From an uncultured Planctomycetota bacterium (GTDB lineage Bacteria; Planctomycetota; Phycisphaerae; Phycisphaerales; UBA5793): a stretch of 64,000 bases of DNA. Made by a program: the position numbers and the translations under genes. Shown here in pieces: positions 1 through 10,825 of the stretch (position 1 is its first letter; each line of letters begins with the position of its first letter). The stretch covers positions 1-64,000 of the forward strand of contig CAADHA010000056.1 in NCBI GenBank assembly GCA_900696685.1, in the 5' to 3' direction. The notes under the pieces were generated by a model. The model was not told the DNA's origin. It ran no database searches and saw only the letters and a list, made by a program, of their open reading frames with translations.

Positions 1-1926
1 ACCAGAGGACAGTTGACAGCCTTCGAGCCGCTGCGGGGCGATGAGGCCGGGGCCTTCGCCGGGACCATCAATCCCTACAAACTCCCGATGGTCTACCTCG
101 CCTACGACAAGCAGCGCACCCTCGGCGCCCGCGTCACGCTCAGGGAGGAGTCGATCGCGCAGCCGCTGACGATCACGCTGCGGCCGCTGGCGGAAGTGAA
201 CTACGAGGCGCAGATCGAGAACGGCTATGAGCCGTCAAACTTTTCGGCCTCGATCGGGATAGGCGATCCGGCGACGATCGTCATGCTCAGTTATGACGCA
301 GGGCCGTACAAGGTTCCCGCCGGGGAGTATGACCTTCGCTTCGGCGGGCAGGAGTTTCTCGCGTTCCGCAAGCCCTTCACAGTGAAGCAAGGCGAGAGCC
401 TCGACCTGGGCGTGTGCAGCCTTTTGCTCACGCCGATCGCGCGCAATGTCGGCAAGCCGGCGATGGAGATCGAGTGTGCCGAGGCGCGCGGGGTGCCGGC
501 GGATTTCCGAATTGAGGCACTGCGCGGCAAGTGGGTGCTCATCGAGTTCTGGGGTTTCTGGTGAGGGCCGTGCGTCACCGGCAGTTTGCCGAAACTCATG
601 GAGTTCTACAACCAGCATCCCGACCTGCGGGACAAGTTCGAGATTCTCGCCCTGCACGAGAGCCGCACGGTGCAGACGCTGGCGCAACTGGATGAGAAGA
701 ACGCCGCCAACGAGCGCGACGTCTGGAAGGCGAAACTACCCTTCCCCGTCCTGATCGACAAGGAAGGGCGGACGGTGAAGCGCTACGGCATCACCGGCTA
801 TCCGACGCTCGTGCTCATTGATCCCGACGGGAATCAGATGAAGGCGGGAAGCCTTGATCTGCTCAAGGAGAAACTGGGGGTCAAGGATCCGCCGCCGGCG
901 CCTCCGCCCGCCCCGCCGTCGAGCGAGCAGGTGCAGGCGAAGGAGTTTCAGTTCACCGGCTCGGTCGTCGATGCGTCGGGCGCGGCGCAGCCCGAAGCGG
1001 AGATCGCGCGGTGGTTTCTCCACCGAGGCGGAGCGCTGCTCCCGCAGGGGGCGATGAACACTGATGCGCAGGGGCGATTCTCCTGGAAGGTGCAGGCGGA
1101 CCAACTTCCCCTCCACTACATCGTGCTCGACAAGAGCCACGCGCTCGGGGCGCTGGTCAAGGTGACGGCGGAGGCGGTCAAGGCGCCGCTGACGATCACG
1201 CTGCGGCCGCTGGCGGAGGTCCGCTTCACGCCGCAGATCGAGGAAGACTTCGGCCCGGTGGTGCTGACAACGTCGTTCGGCTGGCCGGACGCGACGGCGT
1301 TCGTGGTGCAGAGTTACGAGCCGGGCCCCTATCGCGTGCCGGAGGGTGAGTACGAACTCAACATCCGGGGCGATCACCTTGAAGTGCTCCGGCGGCCGAT
1401 CAGCGTCAGGGCAGGCGAAACGCTGGAGATGGATGACGTGCTCGTGAATCTCGGGCCGGCGGCGCGCGCTTTCGGCAAGCCGGCCCTGCCCATTGAGTTC
1501 GCCGAGGCGCGCGGTCTGGCGCCGGACTTCACGCTCGCCGATCTCAAGGGCAAGTGGGTGCTGCTGGAGTTCTGGGGATTCTGGTGAGGGCCGTGCACGC
1601 GCGACAGTCTGCCGCGCCTCAAGGCCTTTTACGAGAAGCACGCCGACCTGCGGGACCGGTTCGAGATCATCGCCATCCACGAGAACCGCACGCTCAAGAC
1701 CTTCGCCGAACTCGACGTGAAGAACGCGAAGACGGAGAAGGAGATCTGGAAGGGTCCGCTGCCCTTTCCCGTCGTGATCGACAAGGAAGGCAGCACGGTG
1801 CGGCGCTATGGCGTGAGCGTTTTTCCGACAGCGCTGCTCATCGACCCGCAGGGCCGGCTCGTCCGGGGCGGCGGTCTGAAGATGCTCGCGGAAAAACTGG
1901 GAGTCGCGTCCGCGCCGCAGCCCTGA
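1..1926 (+). CDS. Tandem TlpA/thioredoxin-like selenoprotein, two in-frame UGA codons; 5' end outside window
   Basis: One reading frame runs from base 1 to the TGA at 1924-1926, broken only by TGA at 562-564 and 1585-1587 (codons 188 and 529 counted from base 1). Both interrupting TGAs sit exactly where the first cysteine of a thioredoxin CGPC motif belongs: FWGFW-UGA-GPC, then SLPKLMEFY or SLPRLKAFY. Later come the DKEG strand and the cis-proline loops (GYPT near codon 268, VFPT near 609). Each Trx domain follows a beta-rich, carboxypeptidase-regulatory-like domain, so the chain is a two-copy module. A hairpin follows each UGA at the same distance. Best read as a probably extracytoplasmic dithiol/selenol oxidoreductase with two Sec residues. 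The start, any signal peptide and possibly more modules lie upstream. A decayed gene is the alternative, but the frame is intact on both sides of both TGAs. Substrate unknown. Confidence 0.8.
579..591 (+). promoter_or_regulatory. Candidate bacterial SECIS hairpin 1
   Basis: CGGCA-GTT-TGCCG forms a perfect 5-bp stem with a three-base loop just after the UGA at 562-564. The loop begins with G at 584, 20 nt after the UGA. Bacterial SECIS elements are small hairpins inside the coding region, close behind the UGA, with a conserved loop G read by SelB. The hairpin codes through TGSLPK, so it fits the protein sequence as well. Its activity is inferred. Confidence 0.6.
1599..1617 (+). promoter_or_regulatory. 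Candidate bacterial SECIS hairpin 2
   Basis: GCGCG (1599-1603) pairs with CGCGC (1613-1617). Above one A-C mismatch, CA pairs with TG, leaving loop GTC at 1607-1609. The loop G is 20 nt after the UGA at 1585-1587, the same spacing as in the first module. The stem sequence differs from the first hairpin while the loop position is kept, which hints at conserved structure. Activity is inferred. Confidence 0.55.
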
Positions 1927-1958: not shown

Positions 1959-2636
1959 TCAGGCTTCGATGAGACCGACGCGGATGGCGAAGCGCGTGAG
2001 AGCGACTTTGTCGTGCAGGCCGAGCTTCTCCATGATCCGCGCGCGGTGCGTGGCGACGGTGGCGTAGGAGCGGTTGATGCGCCGCGCGATCTCCTTGATC
2101 GACAATCCGCTGGCCGTCAGGCCGAGCACATCGCGCTCGCGATCGCTGAGCAGGCTGAGGCGCTGCTGATCCTGCGCATCGAGCGTGCCGTTGGCGCGCG
2201 GGCGCACGGCGCCGTTCCTGACGACATGGGCCGTCACCTCGGCCGCCCGCTGCGCAAGTTCTTCGCGGGGCAGAGCGACGAGGGCGTTGAGCACGCGCCC
2301 ATCCGCCCGCGCGCCGAGGTGATCGGGATCGGAAACGAGCAGAACGCTGAGGATGTCGGGGAAGCGGGCGGTGAGATCGCGGAACTGCCGCCAGCCCGCC
2401 TGGTCGTCGGCGAAGCCGATGATCGCATCGACGCCGTGTCGGCCTTCGAGCAGTGCGGTCGCGGCCTCGGGCGGGCAGGAACATGCAACGCGATGGGAGC
2501 GATGCGCCGTAAAGGCCGTCGAAAGGGCCTCGCGATCCTCCTCCGATCGGGCCACGATGGCGACGTGGAGCAAAGGCTCTGCGCCACCCTTTGGCGCGGA
2601 AGGCGGGCGCTGAATGTTCGTGCCGCTGCGATTCAT
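1959..2636 (-). CDS. LuxR/NarL-type response regulator with degenerate receiver domain
   Basis: A 225-residue protein with a NarL/LuxR helix-turn-helix in the last ~65 residues: LSDRERDVLGLTASGLSIKE, then IARRINRSYATVATHRARIM. The first ~120 residues resemble a receiver fold (HVAIVARSEEDREAL at strand 1, LSVLLVSDP near strand 4). Where the phospho-acceptor Asp should follow strand 3, the sequence reads DAIIGFADDQAG, so phosphorylation is doubtful. Probably a cytoplasmic DNA-binding transcription regulator. No sensor kinase is adjacent. The gene converges on the selenoprotein gene, ending 32 bases from it, so the two are not co-transcribed. The ATG at 2634-2636 gives a full-length family member. 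Confidence 0.8.
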   Translation of the reverse strand: MNRSGTNIQRPPSAPKGGAEPLLHVAIVARSEEDREALSTAFTAHRSHRVACSCPPEAATALLEGRHGVDAIIGFADDQAGWRQFRDLTARFPDILSVLLVSDPDHLGARADGRVLNALVALPREELAQRAAEVTAHVVRNGAVRPRANGTLDAQDQQRLSLLSDRERDVLGLTASGLSIKEIARRINRSYATVATHRARIMEKLGLHDKVALTRFAIRVGLIEA

Positions 2637-4730: not shown

Positions 4731-5783
4731 ATGACCAGACCGGCAGCGAGGCGAGGTGCGGCCGATCGCCGACACAAGAGACCGGCGTCCGGCGGGGGAC
4801 CGGCTGATGATCGGGCAGCACCGGCGCCCGCCGCAGCGGCGCCCAAGTTGCCCGAGCCGCCTGCCCCGCCCTCCCGGGAAGCCACGATCAATGGCGACGT
4901 CGCACCGCCCGCTCAGTCCATGCCGGCTCAACGTCCAGCGCAGGACGTACTTCGAACCTGGGACGACGAGGCCGATCCCCGGCGGAAACGGATCCCCGAG
5001 GGGCTGTGGATGCGCTGCGTGGCCTGCGGTGAGATGCTCTTCCGCAAGGCCCTCGAAGACAACCTCCACGTCTGCACCAACGACAAATGTCAGCACCACT
5101 ACCGCATCTCGGCGAGCCAGCGCGTGCAGCAGTTGTGCGATCCCGGCACCTTTGAGCCCATGGACGAGCATCTCGTCAGCGCCGATCCGCTGCACTTCAC
5201 CGATCTCAAGCCCTATCCCGAGCGCCTCAAGGCGGAAATGGAGCGGACCGGGCGCAATGAAGCGGTGATGACCGGATCCGGTTACGTCCACGGCCGGCGC
5301 GTCATGCTGGCGGTGCTCGATCTGACCTTCATGATGGGCTCGATGGGCAGCGTCGTGGGCGAAAAGGTGACGCGCGCCATCGAACGCGCCACCGAGCAGG
5401 ACTGGCCGCTGATCATTGTCAGTTCCTCCGGCGGCGCGCGCATGCAGGAGTCGACGCTCTCGCTGATGCAGATGGCCAAGACGTCGGCGGCTCTCGCGCA
5501 GTTTGACGACGCCGGCGGGCTTTACATCAGCGTCCTCACCGACCCGACGACGGGCGGGGTAACGGCCTCGTTCGCCATGCTCGGGGATGTGATCCTCGCC
5601 GAACCGGGCGCGCTGATCGGCTTCGCCGGGCCGCGCGTCATTCAGCAGACCATTCGCCAGGACCTGCCCGAAGGCTTCCAGCGCGCCGAGTTCCTCAAGA
5701 AGACGGGTTTCGTTGACCGCGTCGTTCCGCGCAAAGATCTCCGCCGGGAAATCAGTCGCATCATTGACTATGGCGGGAAGTGA
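4731..5783 (+). CDS. accD: Acetyl-CoA carboxylase carboxyltransferase subunit beta
   Basis: AccD forms the carboxyltransferase with AccA and transfers CO2 from biotin to acetyl-CoA to make malonyl-CoA for fatty acid synthesis, in the cytoplasm. The body matches the family: LDLTFMMGSMGSVVGEK, SSSGGARMQE, DPTTGGVTASFA and FAGPRVIQQTIRQ. The N-terminal zinc ribbon is present but odd: CVAC, then CTNDKC, where the usual second pair is CPKC. The first ~75 residues are a Pro/Ala-rich extension without family similarity. ATG 4731 was chosen because GGAGAG lies 7 bases upstream. A TTG 36 bases earlier is in frame but has no such signal. No accA is adjacent. The 3' end overlaps the convergent ada-like gene by 23 bases. 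350 residues. Confidence 0.95.
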   Translation: MTRPAARRGAADRRHKRPASGGGPADDRAAPAPAAAAPKLPEPPAPPSREATINGDVAPPAQSMPAQRPAQDVLRTWDDEADPRRKRIPEGLWMRCVACGEMLFRKALEDNLHVCTNDKCQHHYRISASQRVQQLCDPGTFEPMDEHLVSADPLHFTDLKPYPERLKAEMERTGRNEAVMTGSGYVHGRRVMLAVLDLTFMMGSMGSVVGEKVTRAIERATEQDWPLIIVSSSGGARMQESTLSLMQMAKTSAALAQFDDAGGLYISVLTDPTTGGVTASFAMLGDVILAEPGALIGFAGPRVIQQTIRQDLPEGFQRAEFLKKTGFVDRVVPRKDLRREISRIIDYGGK

Positions 5784-6894
5784 TTGCACCCATTGACCCA
5801 AGCGCCGTTGCACGCGCGGTCGGCTTCGATCCGCCGTTGACGGACCGCTCATGGTCGAGCAGCCACCGCTTGCGCCACAGGCCGCCGCCGTAGCCGCAGA
5901 GAGTTCCGTCGGCGGCGATGACGCGGTGGCAGGGGATGGCGATGGCGATGCGGTTGTCGCCGTTGGCGCGGCCGACGGCGCGGTGAGCACCGCCGCGTCC
6001 CACGGCTCGAGCGAGCTGGGCGTAGGATCGCGTTTCGCCCGGCGCAATGCGCCTCAGTTCCCGCCACACCGCGAGTTGAAACTGGCCGCCGACGGGCGCG
6101 AGGCGCGTGCGGAAGTTCAGCAACCGGCCGGCAAAGTAGTTCTCGAGTTCGCGGCGGATGGATTGCAGATGCACATTACTCCCGGGCACAACCGTCGCGC
6201 CGAGGCGCCGCCGCAGCGTCGCGATCTGACGCTCAATGGCGCGTCGATCGACGAACTCGAGCAGGTGCAGCCCCTCGTCGCCGGCTATGGCGAGCATCGC
6301 TCCCAGGGGCGTGTCGAGCCAGTCGGCAAAGAGGCACTGCACGTCGCGAACTCGCCCCGGCGGTGCGCCGAACAGGCGCGAGAAAGCGTCGCGAAAACCA
6401 CTGATGGACTCGAATCCATTGCGGCGGCCGATGCGCTCGACCTGAGCGCCGCGGCGAATGTCGCTCAGCGCCTCGCCCAGACGCCTCGCCCGGCAATAGG
6501 CGTGAAACGTCATGCCGTAGCGCCGTTTGAAATACGCCCGCGCACGCGTGGGCACGATGCCGAGCGAGCGCAGGTCGTCGTCGGTGAACCGGCGCCCGGG
6601 CCGCCCCTCGACGCGCTCAAGCAGGCGCTCGATCCACTCCGGCGGCCGGAGACCCCCATCAAGCGGCCGACAGCGCTTGCAGGCCCGGTAGCCGGCGTGC
6701 AGGGCGTCGCCAGCGCTGAAGAAGAACTCGACGTTCTCGCGCCGCGGCTTGCGGGCGCTGCACGTGGGACGGCAGAAGACGCCGGTGGTCCTCACGCCTA
6801 CGAGAAAGACCCCCTCACCCTCCGGGTCCCGGCGCAAGAGGGCATCGTACATGTCCGCTTCACTTGGCCCGGCGCTGGTCCGCTGTGTTATCAT
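5761..6894 (-). CDS. ada: Ada-type bifunctional DNA repair methyltransferase/regulator
   Basis: Repairs methyl phosphotriesters and O6-methylguanine by irreversible transfer to its own cysteines. The N-terminal Ada domain has RTTGVFCRPTC and YRACKRC, giving zinc-site cysteines at about 41, 45, 72 and 75; Cys41 is the expected phosphotriester acceptor. A shortened AraC-like region follows (SLGIVPTRARAYFKRRYGMT). The C-terminal Ogt domain carries the active-site motif IAIPCHRVIAADG. Domain order is as in E. coli Ada. The AraC part is reduced, so autoregulation is possible but unproven. Start 6894 is provisional: an ATG at 6852 would remove 14 residues and still leave the Ada domain whole. Converges on accD with a 23-base overlap. 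377 residues. Confidence 0.9.
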   Translation of the reverse strand: MITQRTSAGPSEADMYDALLRRDPEGEGVFLVGVRTTGVFCRPTCSARKPRRENVEFFFSAGDALHAGYRACKRCRPLDGGLRPPEWIERLLERVEGRPGRRFTDDDLRSLGIVPTRARAYFKRRYGMTFHAYCRARRLGEALSDIRRGAQVERIGRRNGFESISGFRDAFSRLFGAPPGRVRDVQCLFADWLDTPLGAMLAIAGDEGLHLLEFVDRRAIERQIATLRRRLGATVVPGSNVHLQSIRRELENYFAGRLLNFRTRLAPVGGQFQLAVWRELRRIAPGETRSYAQLARAVGRGGAHRAVGRANGDNRIAIAIPCHRVIAADGTLCGYGGGLWRKRWLLDHERSVNGGSKPTARATALGSMGAITSRHSQ

Positions 6895-7131
6895 GATCCC
6901 GTAAGATAACGGTAGCGTGAGAGTCGGCCACCGGTGTTTGAGCGCGGAATTCAGTTCTTCTTCCGCCACGCCCGGGCGCCCCTGCAGTGGCCTCAGCGGC
7001 GAGGCCGCAGCAGTCGGAGTACGCCTTACGCGAATCTATCCGCGGATTCACAGAGTCCTAACAATGCGGAAGTATCCTTCGGCAGCGTGGTCAAAGCGAC
7101 CCTCAAACCGCACTGCAAAGGAGAATGCTCA

Positions 7132-8118
7132 ATGCTGCGAGCGAAGTTGAACCGGATGATCGGCGTTCTAGTCGCGGCCTCGGCTCTGGCCGCGCCGTCC
7201 GTCTTCGGCCAGGTAAAGGTCGATCCTGCCCTGCCGGAATACAAGCCGGTCAAGGGCGTGTCGGGGACCATCAAGAGCGTTGGTTCGGACACGCTCAACA
7301 ACCTGATGACGCTCTGGGCCGAGGGGTTCCTCAAGATGTACCCCAACGTCCAGATCGAGATCGAGGGCAAGGGTTCGACCACGGCCCCGCCGGCGCTCAT
7401 CCAGGGCACGAGCAACTTCGGCCCGATGAGCCGCGAGATGAAGGCGCAGGAGATTGACGAATTCGAGAAGAAGTACGGCTACAAGCCGACGGCGCTGCCC
7501 ACGAGCATCGACATGCTCGCCGTGTATGTCCACAAAGACAACCCAATTCCGGGCATGACCCTGCAGCAGGTCGACGCGGTCTTCTCGAAGACGCGCCGCG
7601 GCGGATACGCCGAGGACGTGACCCGATGGGGCCAACTCGGCATGACCGGTGCATGGGCCAATCAGCCCATCAGCCTCTACGGCCGCAACTCGGCCTCGGG
7701 CACCTACGGCTACTTCAAGGAGAACGCACTGTTCAAGGGCGATTACAAGGACGCGGTGAAGGAGCAGCCGGGCAGTTCATCGGTCGTGCAGGGCGTCGCG
7801 TCGGATCGCTACGCCATCGGCTACTCCGGCATCGGGTACAAGACGGCCGACGTTCGGGCGGTGCCTCTTGCGGCCGACAGTGGAAGCGAATTCGTCGAGG
7901 CCGCGCCGGAGAACGCCTACACCGGCGCGTATCCCCTGGCGCGCTTCCTGTATGTGTACGTGAACCACAAGCCCGGGACGGCGATCGATCCGCTCCGGCG
8001 CGAGTTCGTCCGGTACATCTTCAGCAAGCAGGGGCAGTTGGATGTATTGAAGGACGGCTACTACCCCGTGCCTGCCGCGATCGCCGCGGAGACTCTTGAG
8101 AAGCTCGGAATCCGCTGA
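7132..8118 (+). CDS. pstS: Phosphate ABC transporter substrate-binding protein
   Basis: Extracytoplasmic phosphate-binding protein that feeds the Pst transporter. The signal peptide runs MLRAKLNRMIGVLVAASALA to about AAPSVFGQ. Mature-domain signatures are SVGSDTLNNLMTLWAEGF, EGKGSTTAPPALI and GRNSASGTYGYFKE, the phosphate-loop regions of the PBP family. ATG 7132 is preceded by AAGGAG at 7118-7123, spacing 8, which decides the start over the longer open frame. First gene of pstS-pstC-pstA-pstB-phoU. Phosphate-starvation control is expected for the family, but I could not see a convincing Pho box in the 237 bases upstream. 328 residues. Confidence 0.95.
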   Translation: MLRAKLNRMIGVLVAASALAAPSVFGQVKVDPALPEYKPVKGVSGTIKSVGSDTLNNLMTLWAEGFLKMYPNVQIEIEGKGSTTAPPALIQGTSNFGPMSREMKAQEIDEFEKKYGYKPTALPTSIDMLAVYVHKDNPIPGMTLQQVDAVFSKTRRGGYAEDVTRWGQLGMTGAWANQPISLYGRNSASGTYGYFKENALFKGDYKDAVKEQPGSSSVVQGVASDRYAIGYSGIGYKTADVRAVPLAADSGSEFVEAAPENAYTGAYPLARFLYVYVNHKPGTAIDPLRREFVRYIFSKQGQLDVLKDGYYPVPAAIAAETLEKLGIR

Positions 8119-8164
8119 TCGCGGGAATCGGCCGGCATCGGTCAGGCCTGGATCCTTTGCAAGA

Positions 8165-10825
8165 ATGAACGGGTGGCCGCTTGACGGCGGTTACCCGCAT
8201 TTGCAGGACTCGTCGAATGAAAAGAGTGGGGCCGCGCGACCGGAATCCTTCACCGGCCGCAAGCGCAGCCGCCGCACGAGCCGCCTCGTGCGGTTCGCCG
8301 ACGTGCTGTCCCGCGCGTGCATTACCGTGGGGGGAGTGGCGACGATCGTGGCGGTCTCCACGGTTGCGGTGTTCCTGATCTGGGTCGCGGCGCCGCTCTT
8401 CCTGCCGGCGCGCGTCGAAGGCGTCGATCCGGTTGAAGCGCGCGTCGCCGAGAATCCACCTGAGCAGTTTGCAGTTGACGAATACCAGGCGATCGGCTGG
8501 AGCATCTTCGACGACGGCCGGCTAATCGCGTTCAACCCCGCCACCGGCGCCGCCATCGCGCCTGTCGCCGAACTCAATGACCCGCACCTCACAGCGTGGT
8601 CGATTTCGCAAGTAGACGGAACGGCTTCATTCGGATTCGCCGATGGATCCGTGAGGCTCGGACGCATCGCGTTCAGAGGCGTGTTCATTGATGAGTCGGC
8701 GCTGCCTGAGGCGGTCCAGTCGCTCCATCGAGGCGTCGCGGCCGAGCACGATCATGAAGGAAGGCGCGGCGTCATTTCGCGCACCTCTGAATCGCAGTTC
8801 CGGTTCCAATGGGTGGAACTGGAACTGGGCGACCCGATCGCGGTGGGCAAGTCGCCCATCGCGCTCATCGACCATGCCTTCAGCCACACGTCCAGGACTT
8901 TCTGCGCCCTCACGGAGACCGGCGAACTCAAGATAGAGCAGGTCACGGAGCGGCGCAACATTCTCACGCGCGAAGTGACGCAGGTGGTCAACGAAGGTGT
9001 CCTTCCCTATGTGCCGCGCGCCGCCGGGCCCCCGACCCGCCTGCTCATGTCGGGCCTGGGCGACACAGTCTATCTTGTCTGGAGCGATGGCCTGGCCCGC
9101 CGATTCGACACGCGAATGCTCAAGCAGGCGCAAGTCGTCGAGGAGATCGACCTCGTTCCCGAACCCGGCGCAGAGTTGACGACCGTGGCCTTCCTCATCG
9201 GCAAGACATCGCTGCTAGTAGGCGACTCGCAGGGACAGGTCGGGGCGTGGTTCAGGATCAAGCCCGAGAACGCGCAGACCTCGGATGGCGCGCTGCTCGT
9301 GCGTGCGCATGTGCTGAGAGGTCCGCCGTCCGCGGTGACGGCGCTGTCGGTCTCGGCGCGCTCGCGCCTCGTGCTGGTCGGCCACGCCGACGGGACGGCG
9401 CGCGTCCACCAGGTCACAAGTCACAAACTCCTGGCAGACGTGGATGCGGGAAGCGGGCCGATCGCGCTGGCCAGCCTGGCGCCGAAGGACGACGGACTGT
9501 TCCTGCTCAGCGGCGGGCGGCTGCACCGATGGTCGATGGACACCCGCCACCCCGAGGCGACCTTGGCCGCGCTCTTTGCGCCGGTGTGGTACGAGGGATA
9601 TGTGAAGCCCGCGCATGTCTGGCAGTCTTCGAGCGGAACCGACGACTTCGAGGAAAAGTTCGGCCTGTATCCGCTGATCTTCGGCACGATCAAGGCCACG
9701 GTTTATTCGCTGCTCTTCGGTGTGCCGCTCGCGCTGCTTGCGGCGATCTACACGAGCGAGTTCCTCCATCCGCGTGCCAAGGCGGCGATCAAGCCGGCCA
9801 TCGAGATGATGGCAAGTCTTCCCAGTGTCGTACTCGGCTTTCTCGCGGCGCTGGTGATCGCGCCGTTCGTGGAAAACGTGGTGCCGGCTGTTCTGGTGCT
9901 CTTTGTCGCGTTGCCGGTCACGTTTCTCGTCGGCGCCTATGCCTGGCAGATGCTCCCGCAGCCGGTCATGCTTCGGCTCAACCGCTGGCGGTTCGCGTTC
10001 ATCCTCGGCCTGACGCCCATCGGCGTGCTCTCCGCCTGGCTGCTCGGACCGCTGGCGGAGCATCTCCTCTTCGCCGGCGACATCAAGATCTGGCTTGACG
10101 GACAGATCGGATCCGGGCTGGGAGCCTGGATGATCCTCTTCCTGCCCCTCTCTGCCGTGTTCGCGGGGCTCCTCATGTCGCGATTCGTCAATCCGCGGCT
10201 CAGGCCTCGAGCGCGATCGTGGACCCGGCGTCAGACTGCGACCGTTGACCTGATCAAGTTCATTGCCTCCGGAGTGTGCACGCTGACTGTTGCATTGCTC
10301 ATCTCCTTTCTGCTGACCGCTCTGGGCGCCGATCCGCGCGGCTCATTCGTGGACACCTACATCCAGCGCAACGCACTCGTCGTTGGCTTCATCATGGGCT
10401 TCGCGATCATTCCAATCATCTACACGATCGGTGAGGATGCGCTCTCGACGGTGCCCGAGCACCTGAGGGCGGCGTCGCTCGGCGCCGGCGCGACGCGCTG
10501 GCAGACGGCCGTGCGCATCATCCTGCCGACGGCAATGAGCGGCCTGTTCAGCGCGGTGATGATCGGCCTGGGCCGGGCCGTGGGAGAGACGATGATCGTT
10601 CTCATGGCCGCAGGCAACACGCCGGTCATGGAGTGGAACATGTTCAACGGGTTCCGCACGCTCTCGGCCAACATCGCCGTCGAACTGCCCGAGGCGGTGC
10701 GCAACAGCACGCATTACCGCACGCTGTTCCTTGCGGCCCTCGTGCTCTTTGCCTTGACGTTCCTGCTCAACACCGTGGCGGAAATAGTGCGCCTGCGATT
10801 CCGCCGGAGGGCCTACCAGCTGTGA
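8165..10825 (+). CDS. pstC: Phosphate ABC transporter permease PstC, large form with extracytoplasmic propeller-like domain
   Basis: Inner-membrane channel subunit. After a basic N-terminus and one membrane helix (TVGGVATIVAVSTVAVFLIW, near residue 60), about 400 residues form a soluble domain with WD40/PQQ-like strands such as FGFADGSVRLGR, TVYLVWSDGLARRFD and VLVGHADGTARVHQ. The permease domain follows, with the coupling loop EDALSTVPEHLRAASLGAGA and GLGRAVGETM. 886 residues, against roughly 300 for E. coli PstC. Large PstC proteins of this design occur in other bacteria. ATG 8165 is a choice without a strong ribosome site; the frame is open back to 8096, inside pstS. Stop TGA overlaps the pstA start. 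Confidence 0.9.
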   Translation: MNGWPLDGGYPHLQDSSNEKSGAARPESFTGRKRSRRTSRLVRFADVLSRACITVGGVATIVAVSTVAVFLIWVAAPLFLPARVEGVDPVEARVAENPPEQFAVDEYQAIGWSIFDDGRLIAFNPATGAAIAPVAELNDPHLTAWSISQVDGTASFGFADGSVRLGRIAFRGVFIDESALPEAVQSLHRGVAAEHDHEGRRGVISRTSESQFRFQWVELELGDPIAVGKSPIALIDHAFSHTSRTFCALTETGELKIEQVTERRNILTREVTQVVNEGVLPYVPRAAGPPTRLLMSGLGDTVYLVWSDGLARRFDTRMLKQAQVVEEIDLVPEPGAELTTVAFLIGKTSLLVGDSQGQVGAWFRIKPENAQTSDGALLVRAHVLRGPPSAVTALSVSARSRLVLVGHADGTARVHQVTSHKLLADVDAGSGPIALASLAPKDDGLFLLSGGRLHRWSMDTRHPEATLAALFAPVWYEGYVKPAHVWQSSSGTDDFEEKFGLYPLIFGTIKATVYSLLFGVPLALLAAIYTSEFLHPRAKAAIKPAIEMMASLPSVVLGFLAALVIAPFVENVVPAVLVLFVALPVTFLVGAYAWQMLPQPVMLRLNRWRFAFILGLTPIGVLSAWLLGPLAEHLLFAGDIKIWLDGQIGSGLGAWMILFLPLSAVFAGLLMSRFVNPRLRPRARSWTRRQTATVDLIKFIASGVCTLTVALLISFLLTALGADPRGSFVDTYIQRNALVVGFIMGFAIIPIIYTIGEDALSTVPEHLRAASLGAGATRWQTAVRIILPTAMSGLFSAVMIGLGRAVGETMIVLMAAGNTPVMEWNMFNGFRTLSANIAVELPEAVRNSTHYRTLFLAALVLFALTFLLNTVAEIVRLRFRRRAYQL

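Follow-up and report, generated by a model that had tools for sequence, protein, structure and literature searches.

Bacterial selenoproteins comprise 119 families in a 2026 inventory, most of which carry one selenocysteine (Sec) and a few of which carry two or three (PMC13188914). The UxxC selenoproteins tabulated there include thioredoxin (Trx), thiol-disulfide isomerase-like (cd02966), redoxin (PF08534), and Prx-like (PF00578) proteins, all of which have a Trx-type domain whose first active-site position is Sec, as is very likely in the protein described here; however, they contain a single Sec (one to two in the Prx-like proteins, as UxxC or UxxU) (PMC13188914). Double selenoproteins are also tabulated, including the rhodanese/DsbD-like TsoB and MbdU, which are alike in having two Sec per chain but whose domains are unrelated or single and whose motifs are other (PMC13188914). 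UxxU and CxxU forms and fusions have likewise been described, and a tandem double-Sec-Trx protein is found neither among the forms described in that account (PMC2398784) nor among the Table 1 entries consulted in the inventory (PMC13188914). Literature searches returned no paper on such a protein, a term search of PMC12013277 gave no match, and an earlier description may exist. Set against these two sources, Sec in Trx-type domains is already known and the tandem double-Sec build is a new variant.

The best NCBIfam, PDB-sequence, and Foldseek relatives of the protein encoded at the start of the 64-kb stretch of DNA analyzed here (herein referred to as the window) are the periplasmic ResA/StoA/TlpA thiol-disulfide oxidoreductases (NF002854, NF041202; PDB 4nmu, 1su9). 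These share with it a Trx domain and a CGPC-type site; the window protein differs in that UGA replaces the first Cys, in possessing an extra beta-rich domain and in its two modules, and it scores under the NCBIfam cut-offs. A Sec-containing ResA-like domain is also captured by NF041054 (ResA-like WAxxUGC selenoprotein), which matches both modules at 7.5e-17; its Sec motif is different, however, and the score of 61.6 bits lies below its cut-off of 300.

The window opens with one frame that runs from base 1 to base 1923 and whose only in-frame stops are two TGAs; read through to its terminal TGA, it comprises 641 codons (Table 1). The original prediction had described this frame and placed both TGAs at the first Cys of CGPC in thioredoxin/TlpA domains. 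Frame and coordinates were found again, and each TGA does take the place of the first Cys in a CGPC motif of thioredoxin type (FWGFW-U-GPC). The Pfam matches surrounding the two sites are to thioredoxin-type domains, namely AhpC-TSA in two stretches (E 5e-28) and Thioredoxin_8 likewise in two (E 1.1e-22). The W-UGA-G-P-C pattern (TGGTGAGGNCCNTGY) has two matches in the window, precisely at these sites, as against a mean of 0.01 in 100 shuffles, none of which had two. Base 1 of the window is also base 1 of contig C56 (in a genome of 4.3 Mb and 215 contigs, from a planctomycete probably of the class Phycisphaerae), and because the frame is open there the gene is 5'-truncated; the orthologue introduced below has 693 residues to the 641 here, and hence about 52 N-terminal residues are absent from the window gene.

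Table 1. Features of the double-UGA gene, its surroundings, the Sec machinery of the genome, and the second double-UGA design (window positions unless a contig or locus is given)
Feature	Position	Strand	Basis
Double-UGA gene, 5'-truncated at contig start	1..1926	+	Frame; G003 orthologue with both UGAs
Module 1 (N-terminal part absent): beta-rich domain and ResA/TlpA-like Trx domain	1..912	+	50% identity to module 2 over 288 residues; Pfam
Module 2: beta-rich domain and ResA/TlpA-like Trx domain	943..1923	+	Pfam; identity to module 1; AlphaFold2 pLDDT 92.0; Foldseek to DipZ and ResA
Putative Sec codon 1 (UGA) in FWGFW-U-GPC	562..564	+	Frame, pattern count, orthologue
Putative Sec codon 2 (UGA) in FWGFW-U-GPC	1585..1587	+	Frame, pattern count, orthologue
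Candidate SECIS hairpin 1, loop AGUUU at 583-587	576..594	+	Folding, family loop conservation, fdhF comparison
Candidate SECIS hairpin 2, loop AGUCU at 1606-1610	1599..1617	+	Folding, family loop conservation, fdhF comparison
LuxR-type regulator, convergent with double-UGA gene	1959-2636	-	
Ada-type methyltransferase regulator	5761-6969	-	
Phosphate-binding-like protein	6934-8118	+	
Transport permease	8096-10825	+	
selD	C48:30682-31611	+	346.7 bits
selB	C48:31778-33670	+	375.6 bits
selA	C48:33844-35208	+	522.4 bits
tRNASec	C48:35285-35380	+	68.2 bits; ARAGORN anticodon TCA
Second double-UGA design	L074:33-1367, L075:3132-4133, L081:5903-7210	-	TlpA-like FWGTW-U-GPC and Thioredoxin_7 with PW-U-G[W/Y]C

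A search of the genome for selA, selB, selD, and tRNA-Sec had been proposed with the original prediction, and all four are present in a complete selD-selB-selA-tRNASec cluster on a single contig, on one strand and above their cut-offs (Table 1). SelB combines GTPase domains with SelB winged-helix domains (wing_3, 2.1e-15; wing_2, 8.4e-5), the genome's own SelD (L029) has an in-frame TGA within ANCAGUAGKL (GUAGK), and a third UGA gene, on contig C89, encodes a single TlpA-like protein. Two further tRNA-Sec matches above cut-off are tRNASer and not tRNASec. TGA is the terminal stop of 21 of the 22 long window ORFs that we picked by hand, and hence is not a general sense codon, in agreement with what had been proposed from the letters of the window. 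An alternative is that UGA is read as Cys or another residue, through a tRNA other than tRNASec or an altered code, which would suit the Cys that relatives have at the position; yet with TGA terminating these ORFs and the sel cluster complete, and with a conserved loop and AGT codon (described below) that SelB-dependent decoding would call for but general suppression would not, such a reading is very improbable. Sec decoding at both UGAs is, at the level of sequence, strongly supported.

Among 101 genomes (the genome itself and 100 relatives), a full-length match with two TGAs occurs in one other only, G003, which belongs to the same genus; the matches in G001, G002, and G004, also of this genus, are partial and weaker only, and G001 carries a UGA gene of like kind. 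The G003 orthologue is identical to the window gene at 575 of 640 aligned residues and pairs UGA with UGA at both sites, at an overall dS of 0.396 and with a dN/dS of 0.19 before the UGAs, 0.146 between them, and 0.102 after the second. Base-calling error is very unlikely because the orthologue has TGA at both sites, which speaks against the possibility, allowed for at the outset, that TGC or TGT had been misread as TGA. A gene at a contig edge in a MAG-type draft of 215 contigs might be suspected of being a pseudogene or an assembly fault, its UGAs being genuine stops or errors in the sequence; this is nonetheless extremely unlikely, as both TGAs are kept in the orthologue at a dS of ~0.40, dN/dS is 0.10 past the second TGA, and the corresponding codon is TGA in related modules elsewhere in the phylum.

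Recoding of UGA competes with release, and the two UGAs might hence serve regulation, with selenium supply setting the share of full-length, module-1-only, and truncated product. This competition and the mostly single-module composition of the family speak for such a role, and a stop at the second UGA would spare module 1, an outcome that is compatible with a two-Sec oxidoreductase as well. However, purifying selection after the second UGA is at least as strong as before it, indicating that the full product matters, and we consider regulation of this kind an unlikely account of the gene.

The G003 protein starts MNHRLPKIAALLAGMALCAAAHAQP, which by eye resembles a signal peptide (the window gene lacks its own start); from this orthologous N-terminus, the product is probably exported, and probably to the periplasm. 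Four distant matches with one TGA were rejected: L070, L071, and L073 lack a W-U-x-x-C site within any Trx context, and L072 has an out-of-context WUTWC only.

With the U of UGA numbered as nt 1, simple folds of the two window sites give hairpins of -12.4 (site 1) and -17.2 kcal/mol (site 2) with loops GUU and GUC from nt 23; in a short 13-36 segment, site 1 reaches just -6.8 kcal/mol. In a published bSECIS model, the loop spans 3-9 nt, has G in the first two positions, and lies 16-37 nt from the UGA, and the stem comprises 4-16 bp with MFE <= -7.5, the usual loop pattern being N1-G-[G/U]-N-N2 with N1 and N2 paired (PMC13188914). Both window hairpins conform to this model as it is given there, and A-G-U-Y-U suits the usual loop pattern. 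Escherichia coli fdhF has GGTCT (GGUCU) at nt 22-26, the same position as the loop AGU(C/U)U of the wider family to which the window modules belong. Across 25 distinct family sites nt 22-26 read AGTTT in 11, AGTCT in 11, and AGGTT, AGTAT, and GGTCT in one each, such that the loop AGUYU is found at 22 of 25. Codon 8 is Ser in 23 family sites and AGT in all 23, whereas AGT accounts for 13 of 238 Ser codons in the remainder of the genes that carry 22 of the family sites, and for 7.3% of 780 Ser codons in the long window ORFs. No probability attaches to this contrast because the family sites are related by descent. Codon 9 is TTG in 12 of the 25 sites, CTG in 12, and ATG in one.

Within the candidate stem, pair 21-27 forms in 24 of the 25 sites, pair 20-28 in 23, and pair 18-30 in all 25, the last of these being CG in 22, GC in two, and TA in one. 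All seven stem pairs are standard in 126 of 175 cells versus 43-109 after sliding by one to three columns, which is a modest contrast because the -3 slide reaches 109. Folding energies relative to synonymous shuffles were not significant at the window sites (p 0.253 and 0.143; 0.205 and 0.165 in another run); site by site over 22 sites, the same kind of test gave a mean z of -1.32 with p <= 0.03 at four (L105, L122, L207, and L230), and over 90 UGA sites of mixed groups a mean z of -1.35 with 32% at p <= 0.05. RNAalifold over 22 sites did not return the hairpin but a different pairing, at -1.99 kcal/mol as against values near 0 for synonymous shuffles, and Rfam found no SECIS.

The two halves of the window protein share 50% identity over 288 residues, and module 2 is 30-38% identical to single-module relatives. 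The four modules, two from each species, cluster together (100/99) in a tree of 29 rows, and their cluster splits into (win1,G3_1) and (win2,G3_2) with support of 100/100 and 100/99, a topology indicating one internal duplication older than the species split. The model of module 2 (pLDDT 92.0, pTM 0.85) has strands to about residue 168 and a Trx fold thereafter; a full-length model built from five sequences is moderate (pLDDT 78.2, pTM 0.47). CarboxypepD_reg matches the N-terminal part below its cut-off only. Foldseek matches module 2 best to the C-terminal domains of DipZ (4.9e-9) and to ResA (from 1.1e-8), and the closest solved sequence is ResA, PDB 4nmu (4.6e-14). Both modules carry UGPC active sites, together with YPT and FPT, the Pro of which we take to be the cis-Pro of the Trx fold. 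The ResA subfamily model NF002854 scores 122.3 bits and does not reach its curated cut-off of 170; we hence name the protein ResA-like and not ResA.

A family profile built from eight modules and searched in 392 Planctomycetota genomes gave 39 top matches in 23 genomes, spanning model position <=59 to >=345. Among the sites read, UGA members carry W-U-G-P-C or variants of it (WUPPC, GUHSC, TUYPC, RUGPC, and TUGRC), other members have Cys (WWCGPC, WCNTS, and GCPSC), and some divergent paralogues are without any active-site pair, such that, these paralogues aside, homologues align UGA or Cys at the position, which was the comparison initially put forward. At L230 (G551:C170), neighboring paralogues carry GUHSC in one and Cys in the next, and further paralogues in its genus, g335, lack an active site. 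Stop counts for the profile include terminal stops, and the one TGA counted for L215, L231, L232, L233, and L240b can be a terminal stop. UAG as a further recoded codon was rejected: in nine loci whose match was read through (L209, L212, L213, L214, L227, L228, L229, L245, and L246), TAG falls on the match end or no more than a few codons away from it, and L241 (TAG) and L242 (TAA) have an ordinary WCGPC at the one site read. On the minus strand of L200 / L243, adjoining a family gene, EFGAHW-U-GGC places a UGA in a Trx-like context.

The DNA pattern FWGxW-UGA-GPC was found in at least 116 stretches of a collection of species genomes. The matches listed comprise 80 loci with 81 sites, mostly under Planctomycetota titles and also under Verrucomicrobiales, Akkermansia, Armatimonadetes, and more; at all 81 listed sites U is preceded, at a distance of 12 residues, by the G-[K/R/Q] of Trx domains, a feature that the pattern leaves free. 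Many of these loci (L074-L153) have an RAMYPHERSLV motif after the Sec position together with a CACGAGC-GGUC-GCUCGUG-type hairpin, and in genes of this type the SECIS position is unlike that of the window family. One locus, L127 (WYBR01000133.1), is titled Vicinamibacteraceae and is letter-identical in its gene to the G003 stretch L062, and the title looks wrong. Across 298 genomes of the class, selA matches occur in 109 (104 above cut-off) and the UGA pattern in five, from three genera, all five of which have a selA match (in G303, two contig-edge pieces, both below cut-off); the pattern is absent from all 189 class genomes that lack a selA match, and a reversed-pattern control gave 0 in the class genomes. 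Of 72,556 plasmid records, 83 match the Trx part and none covers more than 80% of the protein.

Two Sec-containing Trx domains in one chain had been thought unusual; this stands, but the arrangement is not unique, as 3 of the 80 listed loci encode a second double-UGA design (L074, L075, and L081; Table 1). These proteins are single chains of 334-445 aa and resemble the window protein in having two Trx-type domains, in both of which the first active-site codon is UGA; they differ from it in that their two Trx domains are dissimilar and no module is duplicated. Hairpins with a GAGGAGUUCCUC stem-loop lie 3' of their second UGA.

The genes that neighbor the double-UGA gene in the window (Table 1) and the surroundings of the orthologue provided no functional link to it, and ORFs around the G003 orthologue had no informative Pfam match.

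Judging from sequence, we consider it highly probable that the gene encodes an exported tandem ResA/TlpA-like oxidoreductase in which Sec would stand for the attacking Cys in both CGPC sites, and two Sec per chain are very likely. SelB bound to the hairpin just 3' of each UGA would deliver Sec-tRNASec, and the two-module form would descend from one UGA-containing module that was duplicated within the gene. The protein is most likely a thiol/selenol-disulfide oxidoreductase outside the cytoplasm, where its UGPC sites would reduce or exchange disulfides of a presumed substrate. The genome encodes one DsbD_TM protein, and the electrons to recharge these sites could plausibly come from a membrane protein of DsbD type.

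More broadly, we think it probable that the window protein belongs to a family of exported Planctomycetota selenoproteins with beta-rich and Trx domains, whose E. coli-like SECIS loop is held by codon choice, and that intragenic duplication in one genus gave rise to an oxidoreductase with two Sec and two active sites, made by two recodings each with its own SECIS. The second, differently built double-UGA Trx protein, which occurs in other bacteria of the set, suggests that multi-Sec Trx proteins may have had repeated origins in the phylum. The invariant AGT at codon 8 offers a simple handle by which further members of the family could be found. UGA-containing Trx-like genes are frequent in Planctomycetota, and a gene caller for which UGA can only be a stop would break them up or cut them short. 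On this reading, the gene would extend the known bacterial multi-Sec proteins to a tandem-duplicated, probably exported Sec-Trx architecture and would provide a natural construct for the efficiency with which two UGAs are recoded in one message.
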